This document shows, one piece after another, positions 4,583 to 29,312 of a stretch of 64,000 nucleotides of DNA. Position numbers and translations under genes: made by a program. Below the pieces are notes generated by a model that saw only the letters and a program-made list of their open reading frames with translations, searched no databases and had not been told where the DNA came from. How positions within the stretch are numbered: position 1 is the first letter of the stretch; the number at the start of each line of letters is the position of its first letter. This DNA comes from Streptomyces canus. GTDB lineage: Bacteria; Actinomycetota; Actinomycetes; Streptomycetales; Streptomycetaceae. Where the stretch lies: assembly GCF_041435015.1 (NCBI RefSeq), contig NZ_CP107989.1:1612001-1676000 (forward strand), written 5' to 3'.

Positions 4583-4599
4583 GGTGAATTCCTCTCCGG

Positions 4600-4763
4600 C
4601 GCCTGCGAGGTGAGCTGTCGGGTGCGGGCTGGAGATGCCCGGCCGCGTCGAGACGCGACTTAACCCCAAGCCGTTCCGGAGACCGGAACAGGCGGAACTA
4701 CCTGTGGGTCCCCCGCTCCTGCCGTGCACGGGTGAGTGAGTGAGCGGAATCCGTTCGGCGGCA
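4600..4763 (-). ncRNA. ydaO-yuaA c-di-AMP riboswitch
   Basis: On the minus strand this leader carries conserved blocks of the ydaO-yuaA class: GGGGGACCCA near its 5' half, GGGGTTAAGTCGCG, then GACGCGGCCGGGCATC, and AGCCCGCACCCGACAGCTCA before the final stem. The arrangement closely matches leaders of rpfA and M23 wall-hydrolase genes of other streptomycetes (from memory). The element ends about 18 nt before the M23 peptidase ATG, so it could act on both transcription and translation. Boundaries are approximate. Confidence 0.88.
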
Positions 4764-14443: not shown

Positions 14444-15085
14444 TCACCTCCTGGGGAGCAGCAAGGAACGGTGCCATTCATGGAAAGCTGGAAGAACGGA
14501 ACGAAGGACGCGGAAGGCTGATATTCCACCGCGTACCGTGCCGATCCGGACGAGTTCATGTTGTGGAGCATCCACGACCACCCGGACGGCCGCAACAGGG
14601 TGCTCGCCGGCGCGCACGGCGCTCAGGAGCGTGGCCGCGGACTCCATGTCGACCGCGATCGCACCGGTCGCGAGCAGATCCGACCGCTCGTGACCGCGGA
14701 CGACGTGATCGGAGCCGGTGAGCGGTCCGGTGTGCACGGTACGTCCCGGTACGGCCCGTACGAGCTCCTTGACCAGTAGGTCGGTCTCCACACAGGGAAC
14801 GGTTCCGTCCGGATCCCGGGTCTCCTCGGCGACCACCAGATCGCCGGGGTGCATCCCGGGGGCGAGCCCCGCGCAGAAGCCGGTGGCCAGGACGGCGGCC
14901 CCGGCGAGCGCGGGGTCGGCCAGGCGCCGGGTGACGGACCGTTCCGCCGCCTTGGGGCCCATGCCCGTCCTGAGCAGGGTGACCGGCCCGCCGGCCCCGC
15001 CGCGGTCGCCGGTGCGCAGGGCGAGGTGCTCGATGCCGAGAGCGCAGGCGATCAGCAGCGGGGCGGTGGCGGGCTGGGTGCTCAT
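14444..15085 (-). CDS. hpnG: Adenosylhopane nucleosidase/phosphorylase HpnG
   Basis: A 213-aa protein of the nucleoside-phosphorylase/MTAN-like superfamily that removes adenine from adenosylhopane, giving ribosylhopane. Visible features are LLRTGMGPKAAERSV, ATGFCAGLAPGMHPGDLVVA and the substrate-binding AVDMESAATL, the nucleosidase signature. It overlaps the end of shc by one base (TGATG) and hpnH follows within 5 nt, so all three are co-translated. Automatic pipelines often call this gene simply a phosphorylase. Confidence 0.92.
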   Translation of the reverse strand: MSTQPATAPLLIACALGIEHLALRTGDRGGAGGPVTLLRTGMGPKAAERSVTRRLADPALAGAAVLATGFCAGLAPGMHPGDLVVAEETRDPDGTVPCVETDLLVKELVRAVPGRTVHTGPLTGSDHVVRGHERSDLLATGAIAVDMESAATLLSAVRAGEHPVAAVRVVVDAPQHELVRIGTVRGGISAFRVLRSVLPAFHEWHRSLLLPRR

Positions 15086-17076
15086 CAGGGGGCCTCGGTC
15101 CGGGAGAACGGTTCTCCGTGGACGTACCGGCCCAGGGCGGTGAGCGGGAAGACCTGTCGGTAGAGGTGGTAGTTGATGGAGAAGTCCGAGGGGAAACCGG
15201 TGCCGGTGAAGTAGGGCTCGTCCCAGGAGCCGTCCTCGCGCTGGGTGCTCGCGAGCCACTCGATGCCGCGCTCGACGGCCTTGGAGTCCTTCTCCTCCGC
15301 GGCCAGCAGCGCCATCAGCGCCCAGGCCGTCTGCGAGGCCGTGGAGGCGCCACGGCCGCTCCACTCCTTGACGTACTTGTAGGAGCGCAGGTCCTCGCCC
15401 CAGCCACCGTCGTCGTTCTGCACCTTCTCCAGCCAGGCCACCGCCCGCCGGATCGCCGGGTGCGAGGCGGGCAGACCGGCGGCGGTCAGCGCGGGCACCA
15501 CCGACCCGGTGCCGTAGACGTAGTTGACGCCCCAGCGTCCGAACCACGAACCGTCCGGCTCCTGTTCGGCGAGCAGCCACTCGATGCCGCGCCGGGTGCG
15601 CGGGTCGTGGGAGAGCCCCTCGAACGCGAGCATCTCCACCACGTGCGCGGTGACGTCGGCTGACGGCGGGTCGATGACCTCGCCGAAGTCGCAGAACGGC
15701 AGCCGGTTGGGGAACGGGCTGGTGTTGTCGACGTCGAAGGCGCCCCAGGCGCCGTTCTTCGACTGCATCCCGAGGTTCCAGCGCACTCCGCGTCCGATGG
15801 CCTTCTCCACCCGCTCGGGGTCGTGGTGCCTGACCCGGCGCAGGGCGAGGACGACCTCGGCGGTGTCGTCGATGTCGGGGTAGTTGTCGTTGTGGAACTC
15901 GAACGCCCATCCACCCGGCGGGAGTTGCGGTCTTTTGACGGCCCAGTCGCCGGGCCGGACGATCTCCTCGCCGAGCATCCAGTCCGCGGCCTTGACGAGC
16001 TGCGGGTGATCGGCGGGCACACCCGCGTCGGCGAGCGCGATGGTGGCGAGGCAGGTGTCCCACACCGGCGACTGGCAGGCCTCGATCATCCGGGACCCGT
16101 CCTCGCGCCAGATGGCGAAGCGGTCCAGGGACTCCAACCCGGCCCGCATGACCGGGTGTTCGAGGTCGTAGCCGAGCAGGTGCAGCGCGATCACCGAATA
16201 GACGGCCGGGGGCTGGATACCGCCCCAGCAGCCGTCGTTCTCCTGCCGCTCGATGATCCAGCGGGCCGCGCTGTTCATCGCGGCTCTGCGCAGTCGGCGC
16301 GGGGCGACCTTGCGCAGCTGGTGCAGCGCCTTGTCGAGACGCTGGAAGGCGCCGTCCCAGCTCGCCACCGGGGCGAGGGGCTTGGCCGGGTTCGGGTCGG
16401 CCGGGTCGATGTGCAGCTCGTCGAGCGGGAAGGGTGCGGGCCGGACCGGGCGCTTCGCGGAGACGATCGTCAGCGGGACGATGGTCTGGCGGGCCCAGCA
16501 GCCGAAGTCGTAGATGTTGAGCGGCATCCACCGGGGGAAGTAGATGAGCTCCGGCGGGAGTTCGGGCAGGTCCTCCCACTTCCACCAGCCGAACAGGGCG
16601 AGCCAGATCCGGGTGAACACCCGGGCCGCGGCGATACCGCCCTGAGCGCGGATCCAGGCGGAGGCCTTCGCCATGTGCGGGGCGTCGGGCGCGTCGCCGT
16701 CCAGGCGCAGAGCGACGTACGCCTCGATGGTGGTGGAGAGTTCGCCGGGCCCGCCGTAGAAGCCGGCCCAGGCGCCGTCCTCGCGCTGCTCGCCGCGGAT
16801 GAACTGGGCGGCGGCACGGGTGGTCGACTCGTCGCGGATGCCCAGGAACTGTCGGAGCAGCAGGTCCTCGGCGTCCATCGTGACGTTGGTCTCGAGGTCG
16901 CCCTTCCACCAGCCCTCGGCGTCCTGCCGGGCGAGCAGGTGCTCGGTGGCGCGCTGTACGGCACGTACGGCGGCTTCTTGTATCCCGGCCGCCACGGGGG
17001 TGTCGAGGTGGGTTTCGCTGGCCGCGGCAGCGCGGGGCGGCAGGGCCCCGGTGCTTCCGTCGGTCGTCGCTGTCAT
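15085..17076 (-). CDS. shc: Squalene-hopene cyclase
   Basis: A 663-aa monotopic membrane cyclase (HpnF/Shc) that converts squalene to hopene and hopanol. The catalytic DxDD motif is Asp401-Ile-Asp403-Asp404 in NYPDIDDTAEVVLAL. Repeated QW motifs are spread through the protein, for example near GAWAGFYGG, GCWGGIQPP, GAWGAFDVD, GSWFGRWGV, GGWGEDL and GSWDEP. Length fits the family. Start ATG 17076 follows GAAGGGGAAG. About 120 nt separates it from the preceding polyprenyl synthase gene, the largest gap in the operon, so an internal promoter is possible. It overlaps hpnG by one base. Confidence 0.98.
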   Translation of the reverse strand: MTATTDGSTGALPPRAAAASETHLDTPVAAGIQEAAVRAVQRATEHLLARQDAEGWWKGDLETNVTMDAEDLLLRQFLGIRDESTTRAAAQFIRGEQREDGAWAGFYGGPGELSTTIEAYVALRLDGDAPDAPHMAKASAWIRAQGGIAAARVFTRIWLALFGWWKWEDLPELPPELIYFPRWMPLNIYDFGCWARQTIVPLTIVSAKRPVRPAPFPLDELHIDPADPNPAKPLAPVASWDGAFQRLDKALHQLRKVAPRRLRRAAMNSAARWIIERQENDGCWGGIQPPAVYSVIALHLLGYDLEHPVMRAGLESLDRFAIWREDGSRMIEACQSPVWDTCLATIALADAGVPADHPQLVKAADWMLGEEIVRPGDWAVKRPQLPPGGWAFEFHNDNYPDIDDTAEVVLALRRVRHHDPERVEKAIGRGVRWNLGMQSKNGAWGAFDVDNTSPFPNRLPFCDFGEVIDPPSADVTAHVVEMLAFEGLSHDPRTRRGIEWLLAEQEPDGSWFGRWGVNYVYGTGSVVPALTAAGLPASHPAIRRAVAWLEKVQNDDGGWGEDLRSYKYVKEWSGRGASTASQTAWALMALLAAEEKDSKAVERGIEWLASTQREDGSWDEPYFTGTGFPSDFSINYHLYRQVFPLTALGRYVHGEPFSRTEAP

Positions 17077-17197
17077 GGCTTCCCCTTCGTGCAGTGTGCA
17101 ATGTGGTGCTCTGCTGTGGGTCCGCCGTCGGCCGGTGCTTTTCCTTTCCTCGCAGCACCGGCCGGCGACTACGCGAGGGCTATTCGACCGATAGTGA

Positions 17198-18334
17198 TCA
17201 TCTCTTTCGTACGACGACGAAGTCGGCGAGCGCCGTGAACCGGTCCCGCACCCGGTCGGGCATGTCGATGGCGTTCAGGGCCTCGATGGCGACGGTGTGC
17301 TGACGGCGGGCCTCCGCCGCCGTCCACTCGCGGCCTCCGGCCTCCTCGATGAGGGCGGCGCGGGCCGCGAACTCCGCCTCGGAGAAGTTCTCGAAATCGC
17401 TGCTCTTGGCGTCGGCGGCGAGCATCTCTCCGAGCCGCTCGGAGGCGGCACCGCCCGCCGCGAGCGCGGCCACGACCGGCAGGGACTTCTTGCGCTGGCG
17501 CAGATCGCTCCAGGTCTGCTTGCCGGTGGAGACCGGGTCGCCCCAGATGCCGAGGAGGTCGTCGACGGCCTGGAAGGCGAGGCCGAGGTGGTAGCCGTAC
17601 TTCTCCAGGGTGTCGGCGGTGCGGTCGTCGGCGCCGCCGAGCACCGCGCCGATGGAGGAGGCGCAGGCGAGCAGGGCGCCGGTCTTGTTGCCCTCCATCT
17701 CCAGGCACTCCTCGACGCTGACGCGGTCGCGGTGCTCGTAGGAGATGTCCTGGGCCTGGCCGTCGATCAGGGCGCGGGTGGCGGTGGTCAGACGGCGGGT
17801 GGCGCGGCCGGCCTCGGCCGTGCCGAGCTCGAGCAGCACCTCGTTGGCCAGGGCGAACAGGGCGTCGCCGACCAGGATGGCCTGGGCGGGGCCGTGCACC
17901 TTCCACACGGTGTCGCGGTGGCGGCGCTGCTCGTCGCCGTCCATCAGGTCGTCGTGCAGCAGAGAGAAGTTGTGGACCAGTTCGACGGCGACGGCGCCGG
18001 GGATGCCGGTCTCGGGCGGGGCGCCGGTGACCTCGGCCGAGAGCACCGCGAGAGCGGGGCGCACGGCCTTGCCGCCGTCTCCGTCCGCGGGGTTGCCCTG
18101 GGCGTCGATCCAGCCGAAGTGGTAGGCGGAAACGGTGTCCATCGGGGGTGCCAGGCGGTCGACGGCCGCCTTCAGCTCCGGTGTGGCCAGGGTCCGGCCG
18201 CGCTCGAGGAGCGCGGTCACGTCCACCGCGGTCCTCGCAGCGGCTGTCTCTGCCGGGGGCACAGTGGGCACAGTCTCTCCTCTTGTTGCGGTACCGGAGG
18301 TGCTGGGGCCTGACGCGCCGTGCTGATCGAGCAT
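17198..18334 (-). CDS. Polyprenyl diphosphate synthase of the hopanoid operon
   Basis: A 378-aa trans-isoprenyl diphosphate synthase, most likely supplying farnesyl diphosphate for squalene. The first Asp-rich motif is LLHDDLMDGDEQRR and the second is FQAVDDLLGIWGDP; KTGALLACAS lies between them. Product length cannot be read with certainty from sequence. The N-terminal 45 residues (Ser/Thr/Ala-rich) are an extension beyond the core. Start: ATG 18334 overlaps the hpnE stop (TGATG) and has GAGGAGG upstream; a GTG at 18337 is possible. The equivalent streptomycete gene is about SCO6763 (from memory). Confidence 0.93.
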   Translation of the reverse strand: MLDQHGASGPSTSGTATRGETVPTVPPAETAAARTAVDVTALLERGRTLATPELKAAVDRLAPPMDTVSAYHFGWIDAQGNPADGDGGKAVRPALAVLSAEVTGAPPETGIPGAVAVELVHNFSLLHDDLMDGDEQRRHRDTVWKVHGPAQAILVGDALFALANEVLLELGTAEAGRATRRLTTATRALIDGQAQDISYEHRDRVSVEECLEMEGNKTGALLACASSIGAVLGGADDRTADTLEKYGYHLGLAFQAVDDLLGIWGDPVSTGKQTWSDLRQRKKSLPVVAALAAGGAASERLGEMLAADAKSSDFENFSEAEFAARAALIEEAGGREWTAAEARRQHTVAIEALNAIDMPDRVRDRFTALADFVVVRKR

Positions 18335-19728
18335 CACGCGGCCTCCTCGAACTCGAAGAGGCGGGCGGGGCGGGGCCGGCCCAGGGCAGCGAGGGCGGCA
18401 TCCGCCGCACTCACACCGCTGCGGACCGCACTCTCCATGGTCGCGGGCCACCCTGTGGCGGTCCACGCGCCGGCCAGGTAGAGGCCGGGGGCTTTCGTAC
18501 GGGCGCCGGGCCGCAGCCGTCCGACGCCGGGGGCCGGGGCGAACGTCGCCGTGCGCTCCCGGGTCACGAAGAAGTCCTTCACCTCGGCGCCGCGCGCGAG
18601 CGGAAGAAGCCGCTCCAGCTCGGGCAGATAGCGCTCGCGCAGCGCGGCCACCGGCTCGTCGATCTCGTGGTGCGCGGCCGACTGGGACAGGGCGAGGTAC
18701 TGGCCCTCGCGCAGCCCGGAGGCGTCGGTGCGGTCGAAGACCCACTGCACCGGAGTGCCGAGGGCCGCGAAGAACGGCTTGTCGAGCACCTTGCGGTCGT
18801 AGACGACATGGACGTTGAGGATCGGCGCGGTGCCGATCTCCCGAAGATTTTCCGGGACGTCCAGCGCGCCCTTCGGCAGCAGGTCACACGCCTCGTTCTG
18901 GGCCACGGCGAGGACGACCGCGTCGGCGCGGAGCGTCTCCCCGGGAACCTGAACGCTCCAAGTGCCGTTCTCGTCAGTAGAGATGGAGGTGACGCGTGTA
19001 CGGACCTCGGTACGCACGCCCGCGGAGTCGAGCGCCTTGCGGGCGAGCCGGTCATGCAGGTCACCGAGCGGGACGTGCGCCCAGCCGATGTCGGCCGCGC
19101 CCGGGTCGGACAGCAGACCGGTCTTGAACACCATCGCGGCGAGCCCCAGCGAGGCGTCGCCCGCGACCGCGTTGAGGGTGGCGACCCCGACCAGGTCCCA
19201 CAGGGCCTCGACGGCACGCGCCGACTGACCGTGCGCGGTCAGCCAGCTGCCGAAGTCCTGTGCGTCCAGGCTCGGATCGGCGAGGTCGAGCCCCTTGAGC
19301 GCGAGCGCGGCACGCCCCACCCTGGCCCGCTCGGCGAGCGAGAGATGCGGATAGGTCGCGAGGCTGCGCCCCAGATGCAGGGGCACCGGCAGCGCGTCAC
19401 GCCGGAGTCTGCCGAGCCGTCTGCCTTCGGGCCGGGCCACGTCGAGTACGGGCACGTCGAGCCGGTCCTGCAGTGGCGCCAGCGCCGTTCCCTCGATGCG
19501 GTCGAGGAACCAGCGGTAGGCGGTGCAGCAGCGCAGGTAGACGTGCTGCCCGTTGTCGACGGTCAGTTCGCCGCGCTGGAAGGAGAAGGCGAGCCCGCCC
19601 AGGCGTGGTCTGCCTTCGAGCAGGGTGACACGCACCCCGGCGTCGGCGAGCGCGAGCGCGGTGGTGATACCGGCGAGCCCACCGCCGATCACGACGGCGT
19701 CCCGCCCGGACTGCTGCCCGTCGGTCAT
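18334..19728 (-). CDS. hpnE: Hydroxysqualene dehydroxylase HpnE
   Basis: A 464-aa FAD-dependent amine-oxidase/phytoene-desaturase-like enzyme that reduces hydroxysqualene to squalene. The N-terminal dinucleotide fold is VVIGGGLAGITTALALADAG, followed by LGGLAFSF; the C-terminal FAD motif is GLYLAGAWTATGWPATMESAVRSG in part. Start: ATG 19728 with GGGAGGG upstream; it overlaps the stop of the DUF6380 gene by 4 nt. It completes the HpnC-HpnD-HpnE route to squalene, which replaces a single squalene synthase. Confidence 0.96.
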   Translation of the reverse strand: MTDGQQSGRDAVVIGGGLAGITTALALADAGVRVTLLEGRPRLGGLAFSFQRGELTVDNGQHVYLRCCTAYRWFLDRIEGTALAPLQDRLDVPVLDVARPEGRRLGRLRRDALPVPLHLGRSLATYPHLSLAERARVGRAALALKGLDLADPSLDAQDFGSWLTAHGQSARAVEALWDLVGVATLNAVAGDASLGLAAMVFKTGLLSDPGAADIGWAHVPLGDLHDRLARKALDSAGVRTEVRTRVTSISTDENGTWSVQVPGETLRADAVVLAVAQNEACDLLPKGALDVPENLREIGTAPILNVHVVYDRKVLDKPFFAALGTPVQWVFDRTDASGLREGQYLALSQSAAHHEIDEPVAALRERYLPELERLLPLARGAEVKDFFVTRERTATFAPAPGVGRLRPGARTKAPGLYLAGAWTATGWPATMESAVRSGVSAADAALAALGRPRPARLFEFEEAA

Positions 19729-19865
19729 CGCACACCCTCCCCTGCGCGGACGCCGTGGTGCTTGAACGATGCACGGTCGGCCGTTGCAGTCAGGGACGCC
19801 GTCCTCGAGCGGAGGGTTGCGTGCCACTTTTCTCCGGCGGCATCACCTTGGACCGAATTGTCCAT
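19725..19865 (-). CDS. DUF6380-family small protein
   Basis: A 46-aa basic, hydrophilic protein beginning MDNSVQGDAAGEKWHATLRS and rich in Thr, Ala and Arg, with no membrane segment. It is coupled on both sides: its ATG overlaps the hpnD stop (TGATG) and its TGA overlaps the hpnE start (ATGA). It matches a small streptomycete family (DUF6380) that I recall between hpnD and hpnE. Function is unknown; it may be a scaffold or simply preserve translational coupling. Below usual gene-calling size limits, so often missed. Confidence 0.8.
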   Translation of the reverse strand: MDNSVQGDAAGEKWHATLRSRTASLTATADRASFKHHGVRAGEGVR

Positions 19866-20815
19866 CAGGCGCGCCTCCTGACGGTCTGCCGCGTCACATG
19901 CCGTGCGTCCAGGCCGGACAGCCCGCGGACGGCGACATACGCCTTCTCACGTCCGGGCAGGGAGACCCGGCCGCGCAGCACCGCCTCGGGGTCGCGCTCG
20001 ATGCGGTCGAGCAGGCGGCGGTAGATGCCGGCCATGGCGGCGACACAGGCCCCGCTGCGCCGGTCGAGCATGGGGAGCAGCCGGTAGCCCTCGGCGAAAA
20101 GGGCGCGGGCCCGTCGCACTTCGAAGTGCACGAGGCCCGCGAAGTCGGCGCCCTCCGGTGGCTTCGGCCCCTTGAAGCCGGCCGAGCAGCCGAACTTCGC
20201 GAGGTCGTCGGCGGGCAGATAGACGCGTCCGCCCTCGGCGTCCTCGCGGACGTCTCTGAGGATGTTGGTGAGCTGGAGCGCAAGACCGAGCGTGTCGGCA
20301 TACTCCGGCGCGCGTTCGGCGGCGCGCGCCCCGGGTTCGGTGCCGAACACACCGAGTGAGAGCCTTCCGATGGCGCCCGCCACACAGCGGCAGTACACCT
20401 TCAGGTCGTCCCAGGTCTCGTAGGTCTCGCCGCGTACGTCCATCAGGACGCCGTCGATCAGTTCGTCCAGGCCGCCGAGCGGGATCGGGAAGGTCTGTGC
20501 GGCATGGGCGAGGGCGACGGCCACCGGATCGGTGTCGTCCTCGTCGACCGAGCCCTCCCGCACCCGGGTCAGCATCGCCCGGGTGTCCTCGAGTCTCGCG
20601 GTCTTCACGTCGTCCGCCAGCGCGCCGTCGCCGATGTCGTCGACGCGCCGCGAGAACGCGTAGAGCGCCGACATCGCACGCCGCTTGGACGTGGGCAGCA
20701 GCCTGATGCCGTACGCGAAGTTGCGCGCCTGCTGCCCGGTCACGGTCTCGCAGTAGCTGTAGGCGGCGAGTACCGGTGCGGACACATGCGGTGATGGCTC
20801 CACGGTCCGGATCAC
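19865..20815 (-). CDS. hpnD: Presqualene diphosphate synthase HpnD
   Basis: A 316-aa squalene/phytoene-synthase-family enzyme that joins two farnesyl diphosphates into presqualene diphosphate. The two Asp-rich Mg2+ sites are FSRRVDDIGDG and NILRDVREDAEGGRVYLP. YAFSR and YCRCVAGAIG are also conserved. Start: GTG 20815, overlapping the hpnC stop (GTGA). Downstream, its TGA overlaps the DUF6380 ATG. Confidence 0.96.
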   Translation of the reverse strand: MIRTVEPSPHVSAPVLAAYSYCETVTGQQARNFAYGIRLLPTSKRRAMSALYAFSRRVDDIGDGALADDVKTARLEDTRAMLTRVREGSVDEDDTDPVAVALAHAAQTFPIPLGGLDELIDGVLMDVRGETYETWDDLKVYCRCVAGAIGRLSLGVFGTEPGARAAERAPEYADTLGLALQLTNILRDVREDAEGGRVYLPADDLAKFGCSAGFKGPKPPEGADFAGLVHFEVRRARALFAEGYRLLPMLDRRSGACVAAMAGIYRRLLDRIERDPEAVLRGRVSLPGREKAYVAVRGLSGLDARHVTRQTVRRRA

Positions 20816-21714
20816 CCCTCTCCTCGCAGAGTGACGCCCACCTCGCGCAGCAGCTGGAGCTTGCCGGGCTTGGGCGGGCCGGGAAGTACGTCGTGTTCTG
20901 CGGCAGCGATCGCGCGGAGCGCCGCCCTTCCCCCCGCCACGAACCCTGCGAGCAGCAGCTTCAGTCTGCCGTGGACGCTACCCACCAGGGGGGCGCCTTC
21001 ATTCAGGAGTTCGCGGGCGCGTTGTGCTTCGTATGCAACCAGAGCGCGCACCGATGCGCTCGCGGTTTTCGCGGCGAGATCCGCTTCCTGGACGTGAAAG
21101 CGCTTCATGTCCTCGGCGGGCAGATAGATCCGGTCGCGGCCGAGGTCCTCGGCGACGTCCTGAAGGTGTTCGACGATCTGGAGAGCCGTGCAGATCGCGT
21201 CCGAGAGACGGATCCGCTCGGGGGTCGAGGAGCCGGTGACGGCGAGCACGAGACGGCCTACCGGGTTGGCGGACAGCTCGCAGTAGGCGAGCAGGTCGTC
21301 GTAGGTCTCGTAGCGGGTGACGAGCTGGTCCTGGCGGTTGGCGGCGATCAGGCCGTGGAAGGGCTCGGGGGTGAGCGCGCGGCGGCGGACCGTGGCCTGG
21401 AGGCGGCGCAGCAGGGGATGGGCCGGGGTTCCGTCGAAGACCCGGTCCAGATCGGCCTCGAAGGCGTCCAGGAGGAGCAACCGGTCCTCGGCCTCCTCGG
21501 ACGACACGCCGAGCAGCCGGGCGTCGGCTCCGCCGGGGGCCAGGTCGCCGTCGCCGATGTCGTCGACGAGCCGGGCGAAACCGTAGACCGCGACGAGGTC
21601 GGTGCGCCAGTCCCTGGGCAGGAAGAACGGAGCCACGGGGAAGTTCTCCCCCGCGGCCTTGTCGAGCGTCCCACGCTCCGGATCGCCGGCGCGCGCCGTA
21701 CCGGTTCCCGTCAC
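20812..21714 (-). CDS. hpnC: Hydroxysqualene synthase HpnC
   Basis: A 300-aa squalene/phytoene-synthase-family enzyme that converts presqualene diphosphate to hydroxysqualene. The first Asp-rich site is FARLVDDIGDGD and the second is EHLQDVAEDLGRDRIYLP; YCELSANPVGRLVL is the typical middle motif. It is the first large gene of the hopanoid operon. Start: GTG 21714 (VTGTGTARAG), which overlaps the stop of a 21-codon upstream reading frame (GTGA) and lacks a strong ribosome binding site of its own, so translation may be coupled to that leader. Confidence 0.95.
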   Translation of the reverse strand: MTGTGTARAGDPERGTLDKAAGENFPVAPFFLPRDWRTDLVAVYGFARLVDDIGDGDLAPGGADARLLGVSSEEAEDRLLLLDAFEADLDRVFDGTPAHPLLRRLQATVRRRALTPEPFHGLIAANRQDQLVTRYETYDDLLAYCELSANPVGRLVLAVTGSSTPERIRLSDAICTALQIVEHLQDVAEDLGRDRIYLPAEDMKRFHVQEADLAAKTASASVRALVAYEAQRARELLNEGAPLVGSVHGRLKLLLAGFVAGGRAALRAIAAAEHDVLPGPPKPGKLQLLREVGVTLRGEG

Positions 21715-21776: not shown

Positions 21777-22030
21777 TGCCGTCACATCTCCCGTTCTACA
21801 CCGCAGACCCAATACAGACTATTTCGGACACGCCGCCCGGCCGTCCGCGCAGCGCCCCAGTGATCGGGTGTCGCGCATTATCGCCCCACTTGCCGCGATT
21901 AGGCACCCGTACAGCTTACGTTGTACAACGCGGCAAGGATCGTCGGGGTGTCCTGCACATCACAACAACACACCGATTGGCCCCAAGATTCCTAAGGGGG
22001 CCCGAAGTTGACGTTTCCTTTGCAGACGCG
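21777..22030. other. Promoter region of the hopanoid operon; no gene seen
   Basis: This 250-bp gap holds the likely promoter of the hopanoid operon. I see no confident -10/-35 pair. Notable features are the 12-bp palindrome CGTTGTACAACG at 21919-21930 and, on the minus strand, GGCGATAA (21878-21885), one mismatch from a WhiG -10 box but without a correctly spaced -35. The ABC-exporter terminator lies at its left border with the next operon. Confidence 0.5.
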
Positions 22031-22061
22031 GGGCCCCGCCGGAACAGTTCCGGCGGGGCCC
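22031..22061 (-). terminator. Terminator of the polymer/ABC-exporter operon
   Basis: A perfect 14-bp GC-rich inverted repeat (22031-22044 and 22048-22061) with a 3-nt loop begins 40 nt after the stop of the ABC ATPase gene. No U-tract follows. It separates the exporter operon from the hopanoid operon on the same strand. Confidence 0.85.
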
Positions 22062-22101
22062 GGTCAAGCGGAGCGGCCCTGTTCGTCCGCGGCGCGGTGG
22101 A

Positions 22102-22941
22102 CTACTTGCCCGTGAACTTCTCGTACTCCTTGATGACCTCGTCGGTCGGGCCGTCCATGCGCAGCTCGCCACGCTCCAGCCACAGGACGCGGTTGCAGGT
22201 GTCACGGATCGACTTGTTGTTGTGACTGACGAGAAACACCGTGCCCGCGGTCTCACGCAGCTCGCGGATGCGGGCCTCCGAGCGCTTCTGGAAGGAACGG
22301 TCGCCGGTGGCCAGGGCCTCGTCGATCATGAGTACGTCGTGGTCCTTGGCGGCGGCGATGGAGAAGCGCAGACGGGCCGCCATGCCGGAGGAGTACGTGC
22401 GCATCGGCAGGGTGATGAAGTCGCCCTTCTCGTTGATCCCGGAGAAGTCGACGATCTCCTGGTAACGCTCCCTGATCTGCTCCCGGGTCATACCCATGGC
22501 GAGCCCGCCCAGGATGACGTTCCGCTCGCCGGTGAGGTCGTTCATCAGGGCCGCGTTGACGCCGAGCAGGGAGGGCTGGCCGTGGGTGTAGACGCGGCCG
22601 CTCTCGGCGGGCAGCAGACCCGCGATGGCACGCAGGAGGGTCGACTTGCCGGAGCCGTTGGAGCCGATCAGTCCGATCGCCTCGCCCTTGTAGGCGACGA
22701 AGGAGACGCCCTTGACGGCGTGCACCCGGCGCACCCCGCGCGCCGCCTCGTCGGAGCCTCGCTTGAGGATGCGGCTGAGCGCGGCGGTCGCGCTGCCCTT
22801 TCCGGTCTTGGCGCCGTTGACGCGGTAGACGATGTGCAGCTCGTCCGCGATGACGGTGGGGGTGTGCTCGTCCGCGATGACGGTGGGGGTGTGCTCGTCC
22901 GCGACGGCGGGGGTGTGCTCGTCCCTGATGTCCTCAGCCAC
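22102..22941 (-). CDS. ABC exporter ATP-binding subunit (TagH/Wzt type)
   Basis: A 279-aa ATPase of the polysaccharide/teichoic-acid exporter class. Walker A is LIGSNGSGKSTLLRA, the signature is TYSSGMAARLRF, Walker B is VLMIDEALATGD and the switch His is in LVSHNNKS. TYSSGM is typical for surface-polymer exporters. The N-terminus carries three to four tandem copies of a DEHTPxV(I)A unit, encoded by a 27-bp repeat, which is not part of the ATPase fold. There is no C-terminal glycan-binding domain. Start: GTG 22941, overlapping the permease gene by 8 nt. It works with the permease just upstream. Confidence 0.92.
   Translation of the reverse strand: MAEDIRDEHTPAVADEHTPTVIADEHTPTVIADELHIVYRVNGAKTGKGSATAALSRILKRGSDEAARGVRRVHAVKGVSFVAYKGEAIGLIGSNGSGKSTLLRAIAGLLPAESGRVYTHGQPSLLGVNAALMNDLTGERNVILGGLAMGMTREQIRERYQEIVDFSGINEKGDFITLPMRTYSSGMAARLRFSIAAAKDHDVLMIDEALATGDRSFQKRSEARIRELRETAGTVFLVSHNNKSIRDTCNRVLWLERGELRMDGPTDEVIKEYEKFTGK
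22840..22929. repeat. 27-bp in-frame tandem repeat
   Basis: Copies begin at about 22840, 22867, 22894 and 22918 (period 27, 27, 24 bp), each containing CTCGTCCGCGATGACGG or a variant. They encode DEHTPxV repeats at the N-terminus of the exporter ATPase. The two central copies are nearly identical, so copy number is likely to vary between strains. Confidence 0.85.
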
Positions 22942-23863
22942 GGCCGTACCTTTCCTCCGCCTTCCAGAAGTACACGAAACCGCCGAGCGCGAAGAGCGCG
23001 GCCCAGCCGCCCGCGGCCGCCCAGACGTGGTCCGGCAGGTTCTCGGCGCCGTACTCGTCGATCAGGGCGAAGCGCATCAGGTCCATGTAGATGGCCGCCG
23101 GGTTCCACTGGAGCACCGTGGCGAGCCACTGCGGCTTGTCGGCCAGCATGATCGGGATCGAGAACATCACGCCGGACGCGTACATCCAGGTACGCATCAC
23201 GAACGGCATGAGCTGCGCCAGGTCGGGGGTCTTGGCACCAGCGCGGGCCATGATCAGCGCCAGGCCGGTGTTGAAGAGGAACTGAAGGATCAGCACCGGG
23301 ACGATCAGCGCCCAGGACAGGTCCGGGAAGTGACCGAAGCCGATCACCACGGCGAACAGCACGACCATCGAGAACAGCAGCTGCTGGAGCTGCTGGAGCG
23401 CGAAGGAGATCGGCAGGGAAGCGCGCGGGAAGTGCAGCGCGCGGACCAGGCCGAGGTTGCCGGAGATGGCGCGGACGCCCGCCATGACGGAGCTCTGCGT
23501 GAAGGTGAACACGAAGACACCCGTGACCAGGAACGGGATGTACACGTCCTTCGACATGCCCCGGCTGGCGTTCAGGATGACGCCGAAGATGAAGAAGTAC
23601 ACGGCCGCGTTCAGCAGCGGCGTCGCCACCTGCCACAGCTGGCCGAGCTTGGCCTGGCTGTACTGGGCGGTCAGCTTCGCCCGCGAGAACGCGAGGATGA
23701 AGTGGCGCCGGTCCCAGAGCTGGCGGACGTACTCGACGAGTGAGGGCCTGGCGCCGCTCACGGTCAGGCCGTTCCGGGCGGCGAGCTGTGCCGCCGTCAG
23801 GCCTTCGTCGGGCGGCACGGGCGCGCTCACCGCGACCGTGCCGTCATGCGTTGTCTCACTCAC
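22934..23863 (-). CDS. ABC exporter permease (ABC2/TagG type)
   Basis: A 309-aa integral membrane subunit. After a soluble N-terminus of about 75 residues it has six predicted membrane segments, including VYFFIFGVILNASRGM, FLVTGVFVFTF and LPFVMRTWMYASGVMFSIPI, as in Wzm/TagG exporters. It should form the channel with the ATPase encoded just downstream, exporting an undecaprenyl- or lipid-linked polymer, or a polar lipid. Start: GTG 23863 (VSETTHDG) with GAGGAAAG upstream; the frame continues further upstream but that part is antisense-like and overlaps the GT gene. About 98 nt separates it from the glycosyltransferase. Confidence 0.92.
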   Translation of the reverse strand: MSETTHDGTVAVSAPVPPDEGLTAAQLAARNGLTVSGARPSLVEYVRQLWDRRHFILAFSRAKLTAQYSQAKLGQLWQVATPLLNAAVYFFIFGVILNASRGMSKDVYIPFLVTGVFVFTFTQSSVMAGVRAISGNLGLVRALHFPRASLPISFALQQLQQLLFSMVVLFAVVIGFGHFPDLSWALIVPVLILQFLFNTGLALIMARAGAKTPDLAQLMPFVMRTWMYASGVMFSIPIMLADKPQWLATVLQWNPAAIYMDLMRFALIDEYGAENLPDHVWAAAGGWAALFALGGFVYFWKAEERYGRG

Positions 23864-23961
23864 TGATGGATAGCTTTCCTCTTCGGGATGCGCGGCCTGT
23901 GGGGGGCAGGGCATGAGCGTGGGGCCGCGGTGCGGCCCGGTCGCTCTCAGGAACGAGCTTG

Positions 23962-24846
23962 TCAGATGACCGGGGGCCGGCCCAGTCGGGTCAGGCGCCA
24001 GACGGTACGCCACTTCATCGGCCTGCGCGGTCCGCACGGCGTGCTCCAGCCCTCCCGGAAGCCGCCGAACCAGGCCTTCAGGGCGGGCCGCGAGGGGCGG
24101 CGCAGCAGGGTGAGGAGCAGCCAGACGCCGAGATAGACCGGGACCAGGGGCGCGGGCAGGTTGCGGCGGGCGAGCCAGACCCTGTTGCGGGCGACCATGC
24201 GGTGGTAGACCGCGTGCCGGGAGGGCGCGGTCGTGGGGTGGTACAGCACCATGTCGGACCGGTAGTCGATCATCCAGCCCGCATCGAGGGCCCGCCATGC
24301 GAGGTCGGTTTCCTCGTGGGCGTAGAAGAACTCGTCCGGGAGGCCGCCGACTTCGGCGAAGACCTGGGTGCGTACGGCGTTGGCGCCGCCGAGGAAGGTG
24401 GTGACCCGGGAGGAGCGCATCGGGTCGGCGGCCCGCAGCCGTGGGACGTGCCGCCGCTGGGTGACCCCGGTGTCGGGGTCGGCGATGCGGAAGCTGACGA
24501 TGCCGAGCCTCGGGTCGGCCTCGAAGGCCTGGCGGCACAGTTCGGCGGTGTCGTGGTTCGGGAGGAGACCGTCGTCGTCGAGGAAGAGCAAGATGTCGAC
24601 GTCGCGGCCGCTGGGACCGAAGGCCTCGATGCCGACGTTGCGGCCGCCGGGGATGCCGAGGTTCTCCGGCAGTTCGATCGTGCGGACGCCGTCGGGGACG
24701 TCCGGGACGGGCGAGCCGTTGCCGACGACGACCACCTGGACCGGGTCGCCGTCCTGCTTGGCGACCGAGTCGAGCAGGGCGCGCAGCTCCTCGGGGCGGT
24801 TGCCCATGGTGATGATGACCGCGCCCACCTTCATGCCGGTGCTCAC
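23962..24846 (-). CDS. Family 2 glycosyltransferase
   Basis: A 294-aa GT-A fold transferase. The nucleotide-binding N-terminus is GAVIITMGNRPEELRALL, the acidic motif is LLFLDDDGLLPNHD and the acceptor region shows FFYAHEETDLAWRALDAGW. A C-terminal hydrophobic stretch (PVYLGVWLLLTLL) and basic tail suggest membrane association. It resembles rhamnosyl/galactofuranosyl-type GT2 enzymes, but donor and acceptor cannot be read. Start: GTG 24846, overlapping the stop of the CDP-alcohol transferase gene (GTGA); an ATG four codons later is an alternative. Confidence 0.92.
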   Translation of the reverse strand: MSTGMKVGAVIITMGNRPEELRALLDSVAKQDGDPVQVVVVGNGSPVPDVPDGVRTIELPENLGIPGGRNVGIEAFGPSGRDVDILLFLDDDGLLPNHDTAELCRQAFEADPRLGIVSFRIADPDTGVTQRRHVPRLRAADPMRSSRVTTFLGGANAVRTQVFAEVGGLPDEFFYAHEETDLAWRALDAGWMIDYRSDMVLYHPTTAPSRHAVYHRMVARNRVWLARRNLPAPLVPVYLGVWLLLTLLRRPSRPALKAWFGGFREGWSTPCGPRRPMKWRTVWRLTRLGRPPVI

Positions 24847-25622
24847 TTCAGCCTGCTGGAGGCGAGGATCGACACGAGGTGCAGCAGGGTCTGGAGCAGG
24901 GCGATACCCGCGAGCACCGCGACGCCGAGCCGCGAGAAGAACAGGTCGTCGCGCAGCTGGTCCGCTATCGCGAGGACCAGGATCAGCAGGGAGGCCTCGA
25001 TGCCGAGGATCAGCCGGTGGAACTTGAACGCGGCGGCGGCCCGGCGGGCCAGTGCCATGCCGGAGGAGCGCATCTCCGCGGCCGCCTCCTTGACCGGGGG
25101 CAGTCCGCCCTGGTGGCGCGCGACGCCGACCAGGTCGGTCTCGGCCTTGATCAGGATGGCGCCGAGGGCGGCCAGGGTGCCGAGGAAGGCCCACAGCCAG
25201 TCGATACGGCCGCTGCCGAACACGTCGGCGGCGCGCAGACCGAAGCCGACGAGCACGGCGGCGTCGGTCAGGTAGGCGCCGACCCGGTCGAGGTACACGC
25301 CGTTGAGCGAGTACTGCTTCTTCCAGCGCGCGATCTCGCCGTCGACGCAGTCGAGGAGCAGGTACATCTGGACGCACACCACGCCGAGCACGGCTCCCGG
25401 GATCCCCGGCACCAGGAGCGCCGGGGCCGCGAGGACACCGAAGACGGTCATCAGGTACGTGAGCTGGTTGGGCGTGACCTTGGTGTTCACCAGGTAGCGG
25501 TCCACCCGCAGGGACACCTCACGCATGTAGAGGCGTCCCATCCAGTGCTCACCGCTGCGCCGGTCCTTGACCCCTGCGGGGTGGACGACCGGACGGAGTT
25601 CAGCTACCGATGGCCTTGACAT
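24843..25622 (-). CDS. CDP-alcohol phosphatidyltransferase family protein
   Basis: A 259-aa integral membrane enzyme. The family signature D-x2-D-G-x2-A-R...G...D...D is seen in LLDCVDGEIARWKKQYS followed by GVYLDRVGAYLTD. It would use a CDP-linked alcohol and transfer the phospho-alcohol to a second alcohol. Several membrane helices follow. Start: ATG 25622 (MSRPSVAEL) lies inside the 3' end of the dehydrogenase gene, a 23-nt overlap. Together with the nucleotidyltransferase and dehydrogenase it points to a CDP-polyol route. Substrates are unknown. Confidence 0.9.
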   Translation of the reverse strand: MSRPSVAELRPVVHPAGVKDRRSGEHWMGRLYMREVSLRVDRYLVNTKVTPNQLTYLMTVFGVLAAPALLVPGIPGAVLGVVCVQMYLLLDCVDGEIARWKKQYSLNGVYLDRVGAYLTDAAVLVGFGLRAADVFGSGRIDWLWAFLGTLAALGAILIKAETDLVGVARHQGGLPPVKEAAAEMRSSGMALARRAAAAFKFHRLILGIEASLLILVLAIADQLRDDLFFSRLGVAVLAGIALLQTLLHLVSILASSRLK

Positions 25623-26661
25623 AGTCGGTGTAGATGTCCTTGATCTGGTCGGTCTTGAGGTCGAGGTGTTCGAGGATGGTGTAGCGGCCGGGGCGGGTCT
25701 GCGGGGCGAACTCCACGGCGCGGACGAACTCCGCGGGCGTGAAGCCGATCTCCTCCGGCAGGACGGGCAGTCCGTGCCGGCGCAGTACCTGGGCCATGTA
25801 CGCCGATTCCTCGTGGGCTCCGCGCAGGTACATCGCGAAGGCCGCGCCCAGGCCGCACTGCTCGCCGTGGGCGGCGGCGCGCTTGGGGTAGAGCAGGTCG
25901 AACGCGTGGTTGATCTCGTGGCAGGAGCCGGACGCGGGCCGTGAGTCGCCCGAGATCGACATCGCGACGCCGGTGAGGACGAGGGCCTCGGCGAGCACCT
26001 GGAGGAAGTTGTTGTCGCCGACACCTCCCGGGTGCCGGAGCACGGCCTCGCCGGCCTGGCGGGCCATGGCGGCCGCCAGTCCGTCGATCTTCTCGCCCTT
26101 GACGCGGTTCGCCAGCTCCCAGTCGGCGATCGCGTTGATGTTGGAGACCGCGTCGCCGATGCCGGCGCGCACGAAGCGCACCGGGGCCTCGCGGATGACG
26201 TCGAGGTCGATGACGGCCGCTATCGGGTTGGGCACGCCGTACGAGCCGCGGCCCGCGTCGTTGTCGAGGGTCGCGACGGGCGAGCACAGGCCGTCGTGCG
26301 CGAGATTGGTCGGTACGGCGACCAGGGGCAGGCCGATGCGCGCCGCGGCGAACTTGGCGCAGTCGATGATCTTGCCGCCGCCGAGTCCGACGACCGCGTC
26401 GTAGTGGCCGGCCTTCATCTCGCCGGCCAGCCGGATCGCGTCGTCGAGGGTGCCGCCGCCGACCTCGTACCAGGTGGCGCCGGGCAGGGCGGGAGCAATC
26501 CGCTCCTTCAGCTTGGCGCCGGAGCCGTTGCTGACGGCGACGGCCAGCTTGCCCGAGTGCGAGATCCGCTCGTCGGCGAGCACACCTGCCAGGTCGTCGA
26601 GGGCACCGGGGCGGATGTCCACGACGACCGGCGAGGGAATCAGTCTTGTCAGTAGCGGCAC
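25600..26661 (-). CDS. Iron-containing alcohol dehydrogenase, glycerol-1-phosphate dehydrogenase-like
   Basis: A 353-aa dehydroquinate-synthase-like metal enzyme. Features shared with sn-glycerol-1-phosphate dehydrogenases (EgsA/AraM) are EVGGGTLDDAIRLAGEM, VGLGGGKIIDCAKFAA, and VAVPTNLAHDGLCSPVA. Candidate metal ligands are the Asp of AHDG or GDAVSN and the His residues of SCHEINHAFD and AAHGEQCGLG. By homology it would reduce dihydroxyacetone phosphate to glycerol-1-phosphate, the archaeal-type enantiomer, though other polyol phosphates are possible. Start: GTG 26661 within the end of the nucleotidyltransferase gene (13-nt overlap). Confidence 0.85.
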   Translation of the reverse strand: MPLLTRLIPSPVVVDIRPGALDDLAGVLADERISHSGKLAVAVSNGSGAKLKERIAPALPGATWYEVGGGTLDDAIRLAGEMKAGHYDAVVGLGGGKIIDCAKFAAARIGLPLVAVPTNLAHDGLCSPVATLDNDAGRGSYGVPNPIAAVIDLDVIREAPVRFVRAGIGDAVSNINAIADWELANRVKGEKIDGLAAAMARQAGEAVLRHPGGVGDNNFLQVLAEALVLTGVAMSISGDSRPASGSCHEINHAFDLLYPKRAAAHGEQCGLGAAFAMYLRGAHEESAYMAQVLRRHGLPVLPEEIGFTPAEFVRAVEFAPQTRPGRYTILEHLDLKTDQIKDIYTDYVKAIGS

Positions 26662-27401
26662 GCGATCTCCCGTCCGCGGGCGAGATCGTCGTGGTTGTCG
26701 ATCTCCACCCACTGGACGTCACCGATCGGCGCGACGTCGATGCGGAAGCCGCGGTGCACAAGCTCCTGGTAGCCGTGCTCGTAGAACTGCTGCGGGTCGG
26801 TCTCCCAGACCGTCTTCAGGGCGTCGGCCAGTTCCGGGGCGGCGGCGCCCTCGATGAGGGTGACACCGATGTACTCGCCGGTGGCCTCGGCCGGGTCCAT
26901 CAGCTTGGTGATCTTCGTCATGCCCTTCTCGGCGTCGACGACGACCTTCATCTCCTCGTCGGCGAGGGACTTCACGGTGTCGAGAGCGAGGATGATCCGC
27001 TTGCCCTCGCCGCGGGCAGCGAGCAGCGTCTTCTCGACGGAGACCGGGTGCACGGTGTCGCCGTTGGCGAGGATCACGCCGTCCTTGAGGGCGTCACGGC
27101 CGCACCACAGGGAGTAGGCGTTGTTCCACTCCTCGGCCTTGTCGTTGTCGATGAGGGTGAGCTGGAGGCCGTACTTCGCCTCCAGCGCCGCCTTGCGCTC
27201 GTACACGGCCTCCTTGCGGTAGCCGACGATGACCGCGACCTCGGTCAGACCGATCTCGGCGAAGTTGCCGAGGGTCAGGTCCAGAACCGTGGGTTCGCCC
27301 TCTATGCCCGCGGGGCCCACCGGCACCAGAGCCTTGGGAAGGCTGTCGGTGTAGGGGCGCAGACGGCGTCCGGCGCCGGCCGCCAGCACAAGGCCGATCA
27401 T
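26649..27401 (-). CDS. Sugar/polyol-phosphate nucleotidyltransferase (LicC/IPCT-like)
   Basis: A 250-aa nucleotidyltransferase. The nucleotide-binding motif is GLVLAAGAGRRLRPYTDSLP followed by KALVPV, and LANGDTVHP carries the metal-binding Asp. Overall it looks like cytidylyltransferases acting on phosphocholine or inositol-1-phosphate more than RmlA-type enzymes, which suggests CTP and a small alcohol phosphate. It is 4 nt overlapped with the DUF5941 gene (ATGA). With the downstream CDP-alcohol transferases it probably makes the CDP-activated alcohol of this operon; that is inference. Confidence 0.88.
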   Translation of the reverse strand: MIGLVLAAGAGRRLRPYTDSLPKALVPVGPAGIEGEPTVLDLTLGNFAEIGLTEVAVIVGYRKEAVYERKAALEAKYGLQLTLIDNDKAEEWNNAYSLWCGRDALKDGVILANGDTVHPVSVEKTLLAARGEGKRIILALDTVKSLADEEMKVVVDAEKGMTKITKLMDPAEATGEYIGVTLIEGAAAPELADALKTVWETDPQQFYEHGYQELVHRGFRIDVAPIGDVQWVEIDNHDDLARGREIACRY

Positions 27402-29185
27402 GCGGGTTCTCCTTCATCGTGTACGGCGGGCGCCCCTGCGGACACCCAGAAGCGGATGCTCTCGACGAGCACCAGCAGGGCCACCGCCACGGCCAGGACC
27501 GTGAGCGCGACCGTGAACTGCGAAGCGGTGAGCAGCGCGGCCAGGACGGTGACGAGCAGCGTCCGTCCCTCGTGCCCCCCGATGGCGCGCACCAGCCAGG
27601 CCGGGGGCGCTCCGGCGTTGCCGCGGATGCGGTACACCGTGTCGTAGTGATGGTAGGCGACGGCGGCCACCAGGCCGAAAGCCGCAGGGAGAGCTCCGTT
27701 CACGTCCGCTGCGGCCGCGAGGATCAGCACGGTGCCGTATTCGGCGGCGCGGAAGAGCGGGGGGACGAGCCAGTCGAGGGCGCCCTTGAGGGGGCGGTAC
27801 AGGGTTTGACCGGCGGCGACGGCGTAGACGAACGCACCGGCGACGGGCGCCCAGGTCACGCCCGAGAACAGGGCCACGGCCAGGACCACGATGCCGCCCA
27901 CCGCTGCCACGAGCGGGCCTCCGAGAGGTACGTGCGCGACCCTTGCCAGTAGTCCGGCCGCCGGCCCGTTGTCCGCGAGGTCCACCAGCGCCTGCGCCGC
28001 CCGGTCCGTGCGCTGCGCCTTGCGGGTCAGCGACCGCAGGACCCGGCCCGCCGTCGTGTAGGTCGCCGCGAAGGCGCACCCGATGAGAAGGGCGTAGAAG
28101 GTGATACGAGGCGTGGTGGCCGCCGTCAGGACCGCGATCATCGCCCAGCGCTCACCGATCGGCAGGACGATCATCCGCCGTACCCACACCGTCCAGCCGA
28201 CGCTGTCGAGCTTGTCCGAAAGGGCCGCCGTGGGGCTGGTGTTGGCGGTCGCGTCATGGTTGGCCTCGTTGAACGAGAAGTCGACGACGTGCCGGCAGGT
28301 CTGCAGGATCATCGCGCCCAGCGCCAAGGCCCACACATCGTCGCCCCCGCGGGCCGCCCCGAGGGCGAGGCCCGCGTAGTAGGCGTATTCCTTGGCCCGG
28401 TCGAAGGTGGCGTCGAGCCAGGCGCCGAGCGTGGAGTACTGGAGGGAGTAGCGGGCGAGCTGGCCGTCGGTGCAGTCCAGGACGAAGGACGCGATGAGCA
28501 GGACGCCGGCGGCGATGAACCCGCCGCGGGTACCGGTGGCCGCGCAGGCCGCCGCTATGAGCGCGGTGATCAGCGAGGCGGTGGTGACCTGGTTCGGGGT
28601 CAGGCCCCGGCGGGCGCACCAGCGTGCGAGGTAGCGGGAGTAGGGGCTGATGAAGTGGGTGGTGAAGAAGCCGTCCCGGGACTTCACGGCCGACTTCAGG
28701 CGTACGGCCTCGTCGTCGACGTCCGCGACGGCCTGCCGTGCCTCGTTGCGGGCCTGCGGGTCGGCGGGGACGGCGGCGACCAGGCTGCCGAGGTCGGGGC
28801 GGTACACCTCGGCGGCGTCGTCGGCCAGCGCGGTGACGATGCGGTCGGGGAGGCTGTCCACCGCCAGCACCGTGCCGCCGCCCGCGGAGTTCTCGCGGGC
28901 CAGCGCCCGGGTGAGCGTCGCGCGGCCTTCGGGCTGCGCGGTGAGGGCACCGGGCACGGCGGCGAGCCGGAAGCGGGGGTCGGTGAGGCCGAGCCGCAGG
29001 GCGTGCGCGTGGCCGACGAAGCGGGCGTCGACGAGGGCGACCCGCTGCTCGCAAGGTACCTCGGCGACCAGCCGCTCGGCGTCGGCGGCGTCCACGGCGA
29101 CCCGCACGTCGAAGCCGAGAGACCGCAGATCACCCTCGATCGACGATCCGGGGACCGGCTGACCGGTGAGGATGGCGGTCGACAA
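27398..29185 (-). CDS. DUF5941 protein with central CDP-alcohol phosphatidyltransferase domain
   Basis: A 595-aa membrane protein, first gene of its operon. Residues about 1-190 form a soluble domain (VRVAVDAADAERL, EVYRPDLGSLVAA) unlike known CDP-alcohol transferases. The central domain carries the D-x2-D-G-x2-A-R signature in SFVLDCTDGQLARYSLQYS and then WLDATFDRAKEY. More helices and the DUF5941 C-terminal membrane region follow. It resembles the fusion style of inositol-phosphate transferases. Start: TTG 29185 (LSTAIL) with GGGAG about 9 nt upstream; no better start exists. A 14-bp palindrome lies 128 bp upstream. Confidence 0.88.
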   Translation of the reverse strand: MSTAILTGQPVPGSSIEGDLRSLGFDVRVAVDAADAERLVAEVPCEQRVALVDARFVGHAHALRLGLTDPRFRLAAVPGALTAQPEGRATLTRALARENSAGGGTVLAVDSLPDRIVTALADDAAEVYRPDLGSLVAAVPADPQARNEARQAVADVDDEAVRLKSAVKSRDGFFTTHFISPYSRYLARWCARRGLTPNQVTTASLITALIAAACAATGTRGGFIAAGVLLIASFVLDCTDGQLARYSLQYSTLGAWLDATFDRAKEYAYYAGLALGAARGGDDVWALALGAMILQTCRHVVDFSFNEANHDATANTSPTAALSDKLDSVGWTVWVRRMIVLPIGERWAMIAVLTAATTPRITFYALLIGCAFAATYTTAGRVLRSLTRKAQRTDRAAQALVDLADNGPAAGLLARVAHVPLGGPLVAAVGGIVVLAVALFSGVTWAPVAGAFVYAVAAGQTLYRPLKGALDWLVPPLFRAAEYGTVLILAAAADVNGALPAAFGLVAAVAYHHYDTVYRIRGNAGAPPAWLVRAIGGHEGRTLLVTVLAALLTASQFTVALTVLAVAVALLVLVESIRFWVSAGAPAVHDEGEPA

Positions 29186-29312
29186 CCGAACTCACTCCCT
29201 GGGTGCCGACGCGCGGGCGCCGGTCATGTGCACGATGGGGGCGCCCCTTGGCTGCACCAGGCGGGCGGCATGTCGGCAGAGGCTATCGGATGCCAAGAAG
29301 ACCGCGTTCACC

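Follow-up and report, generated by a model that had tools for sequence, protein, structure and literature searches.

The closest described systems to the locus reported here are the teichoic acid pathways of Bacillus and the enzymes that handle glycerol-1-phosphate or cytidine diphosphate (CDP)-alcohols. In Bacillus, a passage of PMC7086022 places glycerol of the sn-3 configuration in wall teichoic acid (WTA) and glycerol of the sn-1 configuration in lipoteichoic acid (LTA) and in the head group of phosphatidylglycerol. Free sn-glycerol-1-phosphate (G1P) is assumed to be absent from most bacteria, and one Archaeoglobus activity prefers G1P, with its gene unidentified, according to a passage of PMC8262930. 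Our literature search found no named gene for a cytidine triphosphate (CTP):sn-glycerol-1-phosphate cytidylyltransferase, and none of the papers listed has a title or opening abstract that describes a teichoic pathway built on G1P, CDP-glycerol and a CDP-alcohol transferase. We focus here on a 64,000-nucleotide stretch of the Streptomyces canus genome (contig NZ_CP107989.1; the window), in which seven consecutive open reading frames (ORFs) on the minus strand, with zero internal stops, occupy positions 22102–29185 (genes 1–7, Table 1). These are ordinary families in an unusual, widespread combination, a variant of CDP-glycerol or teichoic-type envelope biosynthesis. On balance, we read the operon as encoding a cell-envelope pathway that supplies and transfers phosphoglycerol without TagD and in which all seven genes take part.

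The core of the operon is formed by genes 3 and 2. First of all, the top sequences to gene 3 in the Protein Data Bank (PDB) are archaeal G1P dehydrogenases (G1PDHs; 4rfl/4rgq, phmmer E 9e-43), and gene 3 could also be aligned to 5fb3. D187 is kept in 180 of 181 loci and H265 and H282 in all 181 (numbering of the 370-aa ORF), residues that correspond to the metal ligands of the glycerol dehydrogenase family; the motifs DGxxSP and RPxR[YF]T are likewise present in 180–181 of the 181. The top three PDB sequences to gene 2 are LicC, 4jd0 (a nucleotidyl transferase) and 6pd1, the last two being IMPCT and PntC; all three enzymes couple CTP to an alcohol phosphate or to a phosphonate. Arg13, Lys23 and Asp115 of gene 2, together with NNxYSL and WxEID, are kept in 175–177 of 178 loci, the remainder being unaligned there. 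One Arg, one Lys and one Asp are described as critical for IMPCT in a passage of PMC12275187, and the alignment of gene 2 to these residues was read by eye. A few stretches were fetched twice; the distinct sequences number 174 for the dehydrogenase, 169 for the nucleotidyltransferase and 124 for gene 4. Among the best 80 of 589 confirmed related stretches (the 80-locus set), the nucleotidyltransferase stands directly before the dehydrogenase in every one, with a median gap of 5 nucleotides (nt). Reduction to an alcohol phosphate, activation with CTP and phosphotransfer at the membrane, as proposed in the first-pass annotation, fit these families, motifs and neighbourhoods, with G1P as our best guess for the intermediate.

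The compound that is activated is indicated by the distribution of TagD and TagF. We surveyed 345 genomes of the class (G1PDH-like gene at E 1e-30, TagD at E 1e-20, TagF family at E 1e-50) and found the G1PDH-like gene in 85, TagD in 27 (3 over the curated cut-off) and TagF in 120. The G1PDH-like gene and TagD never occur together (0/85, Fisher p 7e-4). TagF, on the other hand, is found in 77 of the 85 G1PDH genomes versus 43 of the 260 others, in 46 of the 52 G1PDH genomes outside Streptomyces and, at genus level, in 30 of 33 G1PDH genera versus 20 of 93 (p 1.4e-12). The same exclusion is seen within a single genus of 128 genomes, placed as Nocardioides-like by loci of its family that group with Nocardioides: eight genomes carry the G1PDH-like gene (E 1e-40), in at least three gene arrangements, and 109 carry TagD (E 1e-20), with an overlap of zero (p 5e-8). 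Two TagD genes of this genus score 112 and 163 bits for TagD, clearly ahead of the second-best model at 67 and 60 bits. An in-place exchange of TagD for the pair was also considered and rejected: 13 loci with TagD and 7 additional ones with the pair were compared in this genus, and their neighbours do not correspond; one of its TagD loci (L222) has a LicD-like gene and a TagF-domain gene nearby. The S. canus genome itself has no TagD match (TIGR01518) at E 1e-3, and none of 61 Streptomyces genomes reaches the TagD cut-off, 43 of them having weaker matches; TagF is found in 57 of the 61. The exclusion of TagD looks like enzyme replacement, which makes CDP-glycerol the most likely product of the pair. 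We regard this product as likely, and the sn-1 chirality of its glycerol unit, which would follow from a G1P origin, as fairly probable. The genomic pattern thus points to CDP-glycerol as the activated compound behind what had been annotated as an unknown polymer.

Gene 1 carries the signature DxxDGxxAR...GxxxDxxxD, in the window copy and in the other Streptomyces copies that were read whole. Its predicted model resembles the fold of CHPT1/CEPT1, the choline and ethanolamine phosphotransferases of eukaryotes, with a transferase domain and a C-terminal membrane half formed by DUF5941, at a sequence identity of 10–14%. The model suggests that gene 1 could move phosphoglycerol onto a lipid alcohol, and we consider a lipid acceptor somewhat probable. 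DUF5941, on which our literature search found no paper, would gain a structural meaning, supplying the C-terminal half of a membrane enzyme that resembles choline phosphotransferase. Outside Streptomyces, DUF5941 is usually a separate adjoining gene (one fused exception was read, L093), and Streptomyces gene 1 is therefore a fusion. A profile comparison between DUF5941 and the transferase domain included a fused protein in one of its sets and was uninformative on internal duplication; DUF5941 gave no match to gene 4. In gene 4, D1, D2, G, AR and D3 show no variation across all 130 loci, and the fourth position is never Asp (0/130; 124 distinct sequences). It is Ala in 53 and His in 5 Streptomyces loci, His in 50 and Ala in 4 of the 80-locus set (all four Nonomuraea), and His in the remaining 18. 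The fourth Asp is described in a passage of PMC4634129 as the putative catalytic base, with its change to Asn nearly abolishing the activity of a related enzyme. Two successive transfers, as annotated earlier, are thus doubtful. The transferase fold of gene 4 is retained despite the missing residue, and we infer that genes 1 and 4 may form a mixed pair with unequal subunits, or that His may act as the base; gene 4 is predicted to be a partner or an atypical enzyme. Gene 5 follows gene 4 directly in 53 of the 54 gene-4 loci of the 80-locus set.

The exporter genes suggest a link between the operon and teichoic acid export. The sole NCBIfam match of gene 6 is the galactan exporter Wzm, below cut-off. 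All matches of gene 7 are also below cut-off, the best being TagH (NF010066, 184 bits versus a cut-off of 320) and the third galactan Wzt (NF050108, 156/400 bits); TagH is the closest type for gene 7, without curated membership. The permease lies within 3.2 kb of the G1PDH-like gene in all 54 Streptomyces genomes with both positions listed, out of 61 searched; 7 of the 61 have no G1PDH position among the matches listed. The TagGH-type export that had been proposed fits both families and neighbourhoods. TagF-type polymerases (PF04464) are not among the seven genes, and the first-pass annotation had concluded from this that the operon is not part of a standard teichoic acid pathway. We find no support for this argument, given the strong co-occurrence of TagF with the G1PDH-like gene across the class and two TagF matches elsewhere in the S. 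canus genome. One of these, a protein of 752 aa with GT2 and PF04464 domains, is separated by about 5.5 kb from a TagGH pair (L121/L203, C1:6.10–6.11 Mb) that is 69% and 83% identical to that of the operon, the paralogue of the ATPase (gene 7) being the one at 83%, and a galE paralogue lies between it and TagF. The exporter of the operon is a paralogue of an exporter that neighbours a teichoic-acid-type polymerase, and the paralogues of TagG/TagH and galE suggest duplication of a teichoic-acid export unit.

The substrates, chirality, acceptor and product that we infer are combined in the following scheme. Gene 3 would reduce dihydroxyacetone phosphate (DHAP) to G1P, which gene 2 would convert with CTP to CDP-glycerol of the sn-1 configuration. 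With CDP-glycerol as donor, gene 1 would then place phosphoglycerol on a lipid alcohol of the membrane (diacylglycerol, a glycolipid or a polyprenol); gene 4, in which the usual catalytic base is missing, would probably act as its partner subunit. Gene 5 would glycosylate the product and genes 6 and 7 would export it; the same CDP-glycerol pool probably feeds the TagF-type polymerases encoded elsewhere. A lipoteichoic acid as the end product is tentative and rather unlikely. According to passages of PMC3196553, the LTA of S. hygroscopicus is a poly(glycerol phosphate) very like its wall polymer, and sequenced actinobacteria have no clear LtaS orthologue. The proposed pathway would offer one answer to how LTA is made there. 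An LtaS-independent route, which we would consider slightly more doubtful still, might place G1P-derived CDP-glycerol units onto diacylglycerol or a glycolipid in the cytoplasm, with TagF extending the chain and the exporter of the operon delivering it; the sn-1 configuration typical of LTA would then arise in the cytoplasm, since a CHPT-like enzyme would attach the G1P-derived unit. If the pair does make CDP-glycerol from G1P, it would fill a missing step of teichoic acid synthesis where TagD is absent and give G1P a bacterial role beyond ether lipids. Teichoic polymers of opposite chirality would also be predicted, which the stereospecific GlpQ could distinguish (a passage of PMC7086022). 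As to earlier work, a synteny paper from 2026 assigns these genes to a region that it ties to teichoic acid biosynthesis and secondary metabolism, in a passage that gives no mechanism (PMC13118837), and tagO of S. coelicolor is named in a passage of PMC7300013. For SCO6752–SCO6757, the presumed S. coelicolor counterparts, the literature search listed one paper, a network-inference study.

The first-pass annotation had called for the seven-gene neighbourhood to be looked for across the actinobacteria, and the pair is adjacent throughout the 80-locus set. The operon has near relatives in many filamentous soil bacteria. The G1PDH-like gene is present in 150 of 150 Streptomyces genomes searched, so the operon is not a chance assembly; the class survey shows it in 33 of 126 genera. 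Of the 80 loci, 54 carry the pair with genes 4 and 5; in 19, from Micromonosporaceae, a single complete CDP-alcohol transferase accompanies it; three Nocardioides loci have it with a GlfT2-like polymerase, TagG and TagH; and in the last four it stands by itself, next to TagGH or next to a gene-1 relative. At one further locus (L088) the pair lies with TagGH and a GT2-TagF fusion, and at another (L104) no nucleotidyltransferase was found adjoining the dehydrogenase. A TagF polymerase domain within the fetched stretch was found at just 6 of 120 loci. TagF inside the Nocardiopsis clusters was considered and rejected: tblastn with the complete S. canus TagF matched 11 of the 80 loci, and with the L088 fusion 4 more, covering the GT2 domain only. 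Second copies, which arose within Streptomyces, lie between rne and rplU-rpmA-obg at the eight loci read (L095–L098, L100–L102, L105), Pfam having been run on L095 and the others assigned by matching gene sizes; at two of the eight (L097, L101) the dehydrogenase alone was found at this site. It is an odd site for an envelope enzyme pair. Four of the eight have a TagF domain within about 10 kb, and these copies outside the operon, together with the TagD exclusion and TagF co-occurrence, would also be expected if the pair only supplied CDP-glycerol for ordinary TagF-made wall teichoic acid, with genes 1, 4 and 5 doing a separate, co-regulated lipid job. We consider this unlikely, given that in the 54 gene-4 and 19 single-transferase loci the dehydrogenase gene either overlaps or directly borders one for a CDP-alcohol transferase, and that 8 of the 85 G1PDH genomes have no TagF match at E 1e-50.

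Several observations weigh against the phosphoglycerol pathway as proposed, the same eight genomes among them. First, 43 TagF genomes lack the G1PDH-like gene, of which 15 have TagD and 28 have neither; those 28 may draw CDP-glycerol from a third source or use other donors. Second, relatedness between genomes inflates all p values, and most of the TagD matches counted are below the curated cut-off (over it are 3 of 345 genomes in the class and 2 of 128 in the genus). The exclusion also depends on the threshold of E 1e-20, as 25 of the 61 Streptomyces genomes have a TagD match of 58–70 bits (E 1e-18 to 7e-15). In the two of these 25 that were examined (L115, L116) TagD scores 70 and 68 bits versus 69 and 68 for heptose-phosphate adenylyltransferase, and RTxxISTT is lacking; their protein is a conserved HxGH cytidylyl/adenylyltransferase, equally near both models. 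Third, the catalytic signature of gene 1 is lost in L075, L077, L079, L082, L083, L085, L086, L089 and L108, as well as in nine loci of the 80-locus set, mostly of Nocardiopsis type and partly the same DNA. DUF5941 persists at these loci, as does gene 4 (with His in the copies read), and gene 1 is there a natural pseudo-enzyme within a conserved operon; it is therefore not a universal transferase. Fourth, a passage of PMC3196553 reports LTA in some species of a genus and not in others, which contrasts with a dehydrogenase found in every Streptomyces genome searched. Finally, the best NCBIfam match of gene 3, archaeal G1PDH (NF002022), reaches 246.7 bits versus a curated cut-off of 413, and we therefore call it G1PDH-like and not the archaeal equivalog; its identity to relatives beyond Streptomyces is just 46–54%. 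The family of gene 2 is described as catalytically diverse, with varied substrates, in a passage of PMC12275187 that also reports no activity on glycerol-1-phosphate for its member CpgD. This diversity, and the distance of gene 3 from its relatives and from the equivalog, would suit a pair that acts on another phosphoketose or polyol (a tetritol, ribitol or the like) to give a different CDP-polyol. The near-invariant G1PDH motif residues that were checked and the archaeal G1PDHs as best PDB relatives speak for G1P instead, and replacement of TagD predicts glycerol, making another polyol quite improbable.

The genomic setting brings in two further explanations. Directly downstream of the operon lies a hopanoid cluster in which HpnC, HpnD, HpnE and squalene-hopene cyclase all score above curated cut-offs, and upstream, divergently oriented, are galE, a gene assigned to cation efflux on its translation alone, and idi. 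Such hopanoid and isoprenoid neighbours would suit an archaeal-type ether lipid, with G1P passing to a prenylated glycerol phosphate as in Bacillus (the first-pass annotation had entertained a polar lipid carrying archaeal-type G1P), and a passage of PMC6431249 reports species of Streptomyces that have all three archaeal lipid genes. The next enzyme of that route, GGGPS/PcrB (PF01884), is however found in 0 of 61 Streptomyces genomes, S. canus included, with 7 of 14 controls positive (5 over cut-off), which leaves the ether lipid very improbable. The same neighbours could instead point to a role of the operon in the metabolism of hopanoid side chains or carrier lipids, and four other Streptomyces loci that were read indeed retain hpnC, hpnD, the efflux gene and idi next to the operon, two of them galE as well. 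Across the 80 pair-carrying loci, on the other hand, there is no hpnC or galE match and one idi match, and we give this explanation next to no credence. Separately, the best model for the polyprenyl synthase of the hopanoid cluster is a family 2 encapsulin cargo, below cut-off (402/450 bits).

The coordinates of the operon and of these features are collected in Table 1. Gene starts were chosen by fit to relatives; for gene 3 this is a GTG at 26661, the longest ORF extending to 26712. The earlier description of seven tightly overlapped genes stands for location, order and five junctions, with overlaps of 4, 13, 23, 4 and 8 nt, and fails between genes 5 and 6, which are spaced by 131 nt. Scans of 21600–29700 for sigma-70 promoters and terminators found none, and Rfam gave no match inside the operon. 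Across the whole window a single Rfam match reaches the gathering threshold, a c-di-AMP riboswitch (65.7 bits, E 5e-13).

Table 1. Positions in the window of the operon genes and of other features mentioned in the text
Feature	Position	Strand	Assignment
Gene 1	27398..29185	-	AF2299-like N-terminal domain + CDP-alcohol phosphotransferase (CDP-OH_P_transf; full D1-D4 signature) + DUF5941
Gene 2	26649..27401	-	COG1213-type CTP:alcohol-phosphate cytidylyltransferase; NTP_transferase family
Gene 3	25600..26661	-	Glycerol-1-phosphate dehydrogenase (G1PDH)-like; Fe-ADH_2 family
Gene 4	24843..25622	-	Second CDP-alcohol phosphotransferase fold (CDP-OH_P_transf); D1-D3 present, D4 = Ala
Gene 5	23962..24846	-	GT2 glycosyltransferase, PF00535
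Gene 6	22934..23830	-	ABC-2 export permease (TagG/Wzm-like), PF01061
Gene 7	22102..22941	-	ABC export ATPase (TagH/Wzt-like)
Hopanoid cluster	15085..21714	-	Squalene-hopene cyclase, polyprenyl synthase, HpnE, HpnD, HpnC
Polyprenyl synthase	17198..18226		Within the hopanoid cluster
c-di-AMP riboswitch	4585..4756	-	RF00379

The differences from described systems can be set out as follows. The mycobacterial galactan exporter with GlfT1 likewise has a GT2 enzyme beside a Wzm/Wzt-type transporter, but the operon scores far below the curated cut-offs for it and adds phosphoglycerol genes. AraM of Bacillus and EgsA of archaea are the counterparts of gene 3, which has the metal ligands and motifs of the archaeal G1PDHs; gene 3, on the other hand, is associated with a cytidylyltransferase, and the 61 Streptomyces genomes contain no GGGPS match. 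In the PDB, genes 1 and 4 are nearest in sequence to AF2299 and IPCT-DIPPS of Archaeoglobus, in which an N-terminal nucleotidyltransferase-like domain is similarly fused to a CDP-alcohol transferase and the CDP-alcohol donors are soluble. Their acceptor, where assigned, is inositol, and the structures compared contain no DUF5941, glycosyltransferase or exporter. CHPT1/CEPT1 of the Kennedy pathway share the predicted fold of gene 1 and, by prediction, a soluble CDP-alcohol donor, but gene 1 differs in its extra N-terminal domain, its very low sequence identity and a donor predicted to be CDP-glycerol. Finally, Bacillus wall teichoic acid synthesis (TagD, TagB/F, TagGH) shares with this system the predicted CDP-glycerol unit, a TagGH-type exporter and a TagF in the genome. 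Where Bacillus uses TagD, the operon has a G1PDH-like dehydrogenase and a COG1213 enzyme, and where Bacillus uses TagB/F, the operon itself encodes CDP-alcohol phosphotransferases.

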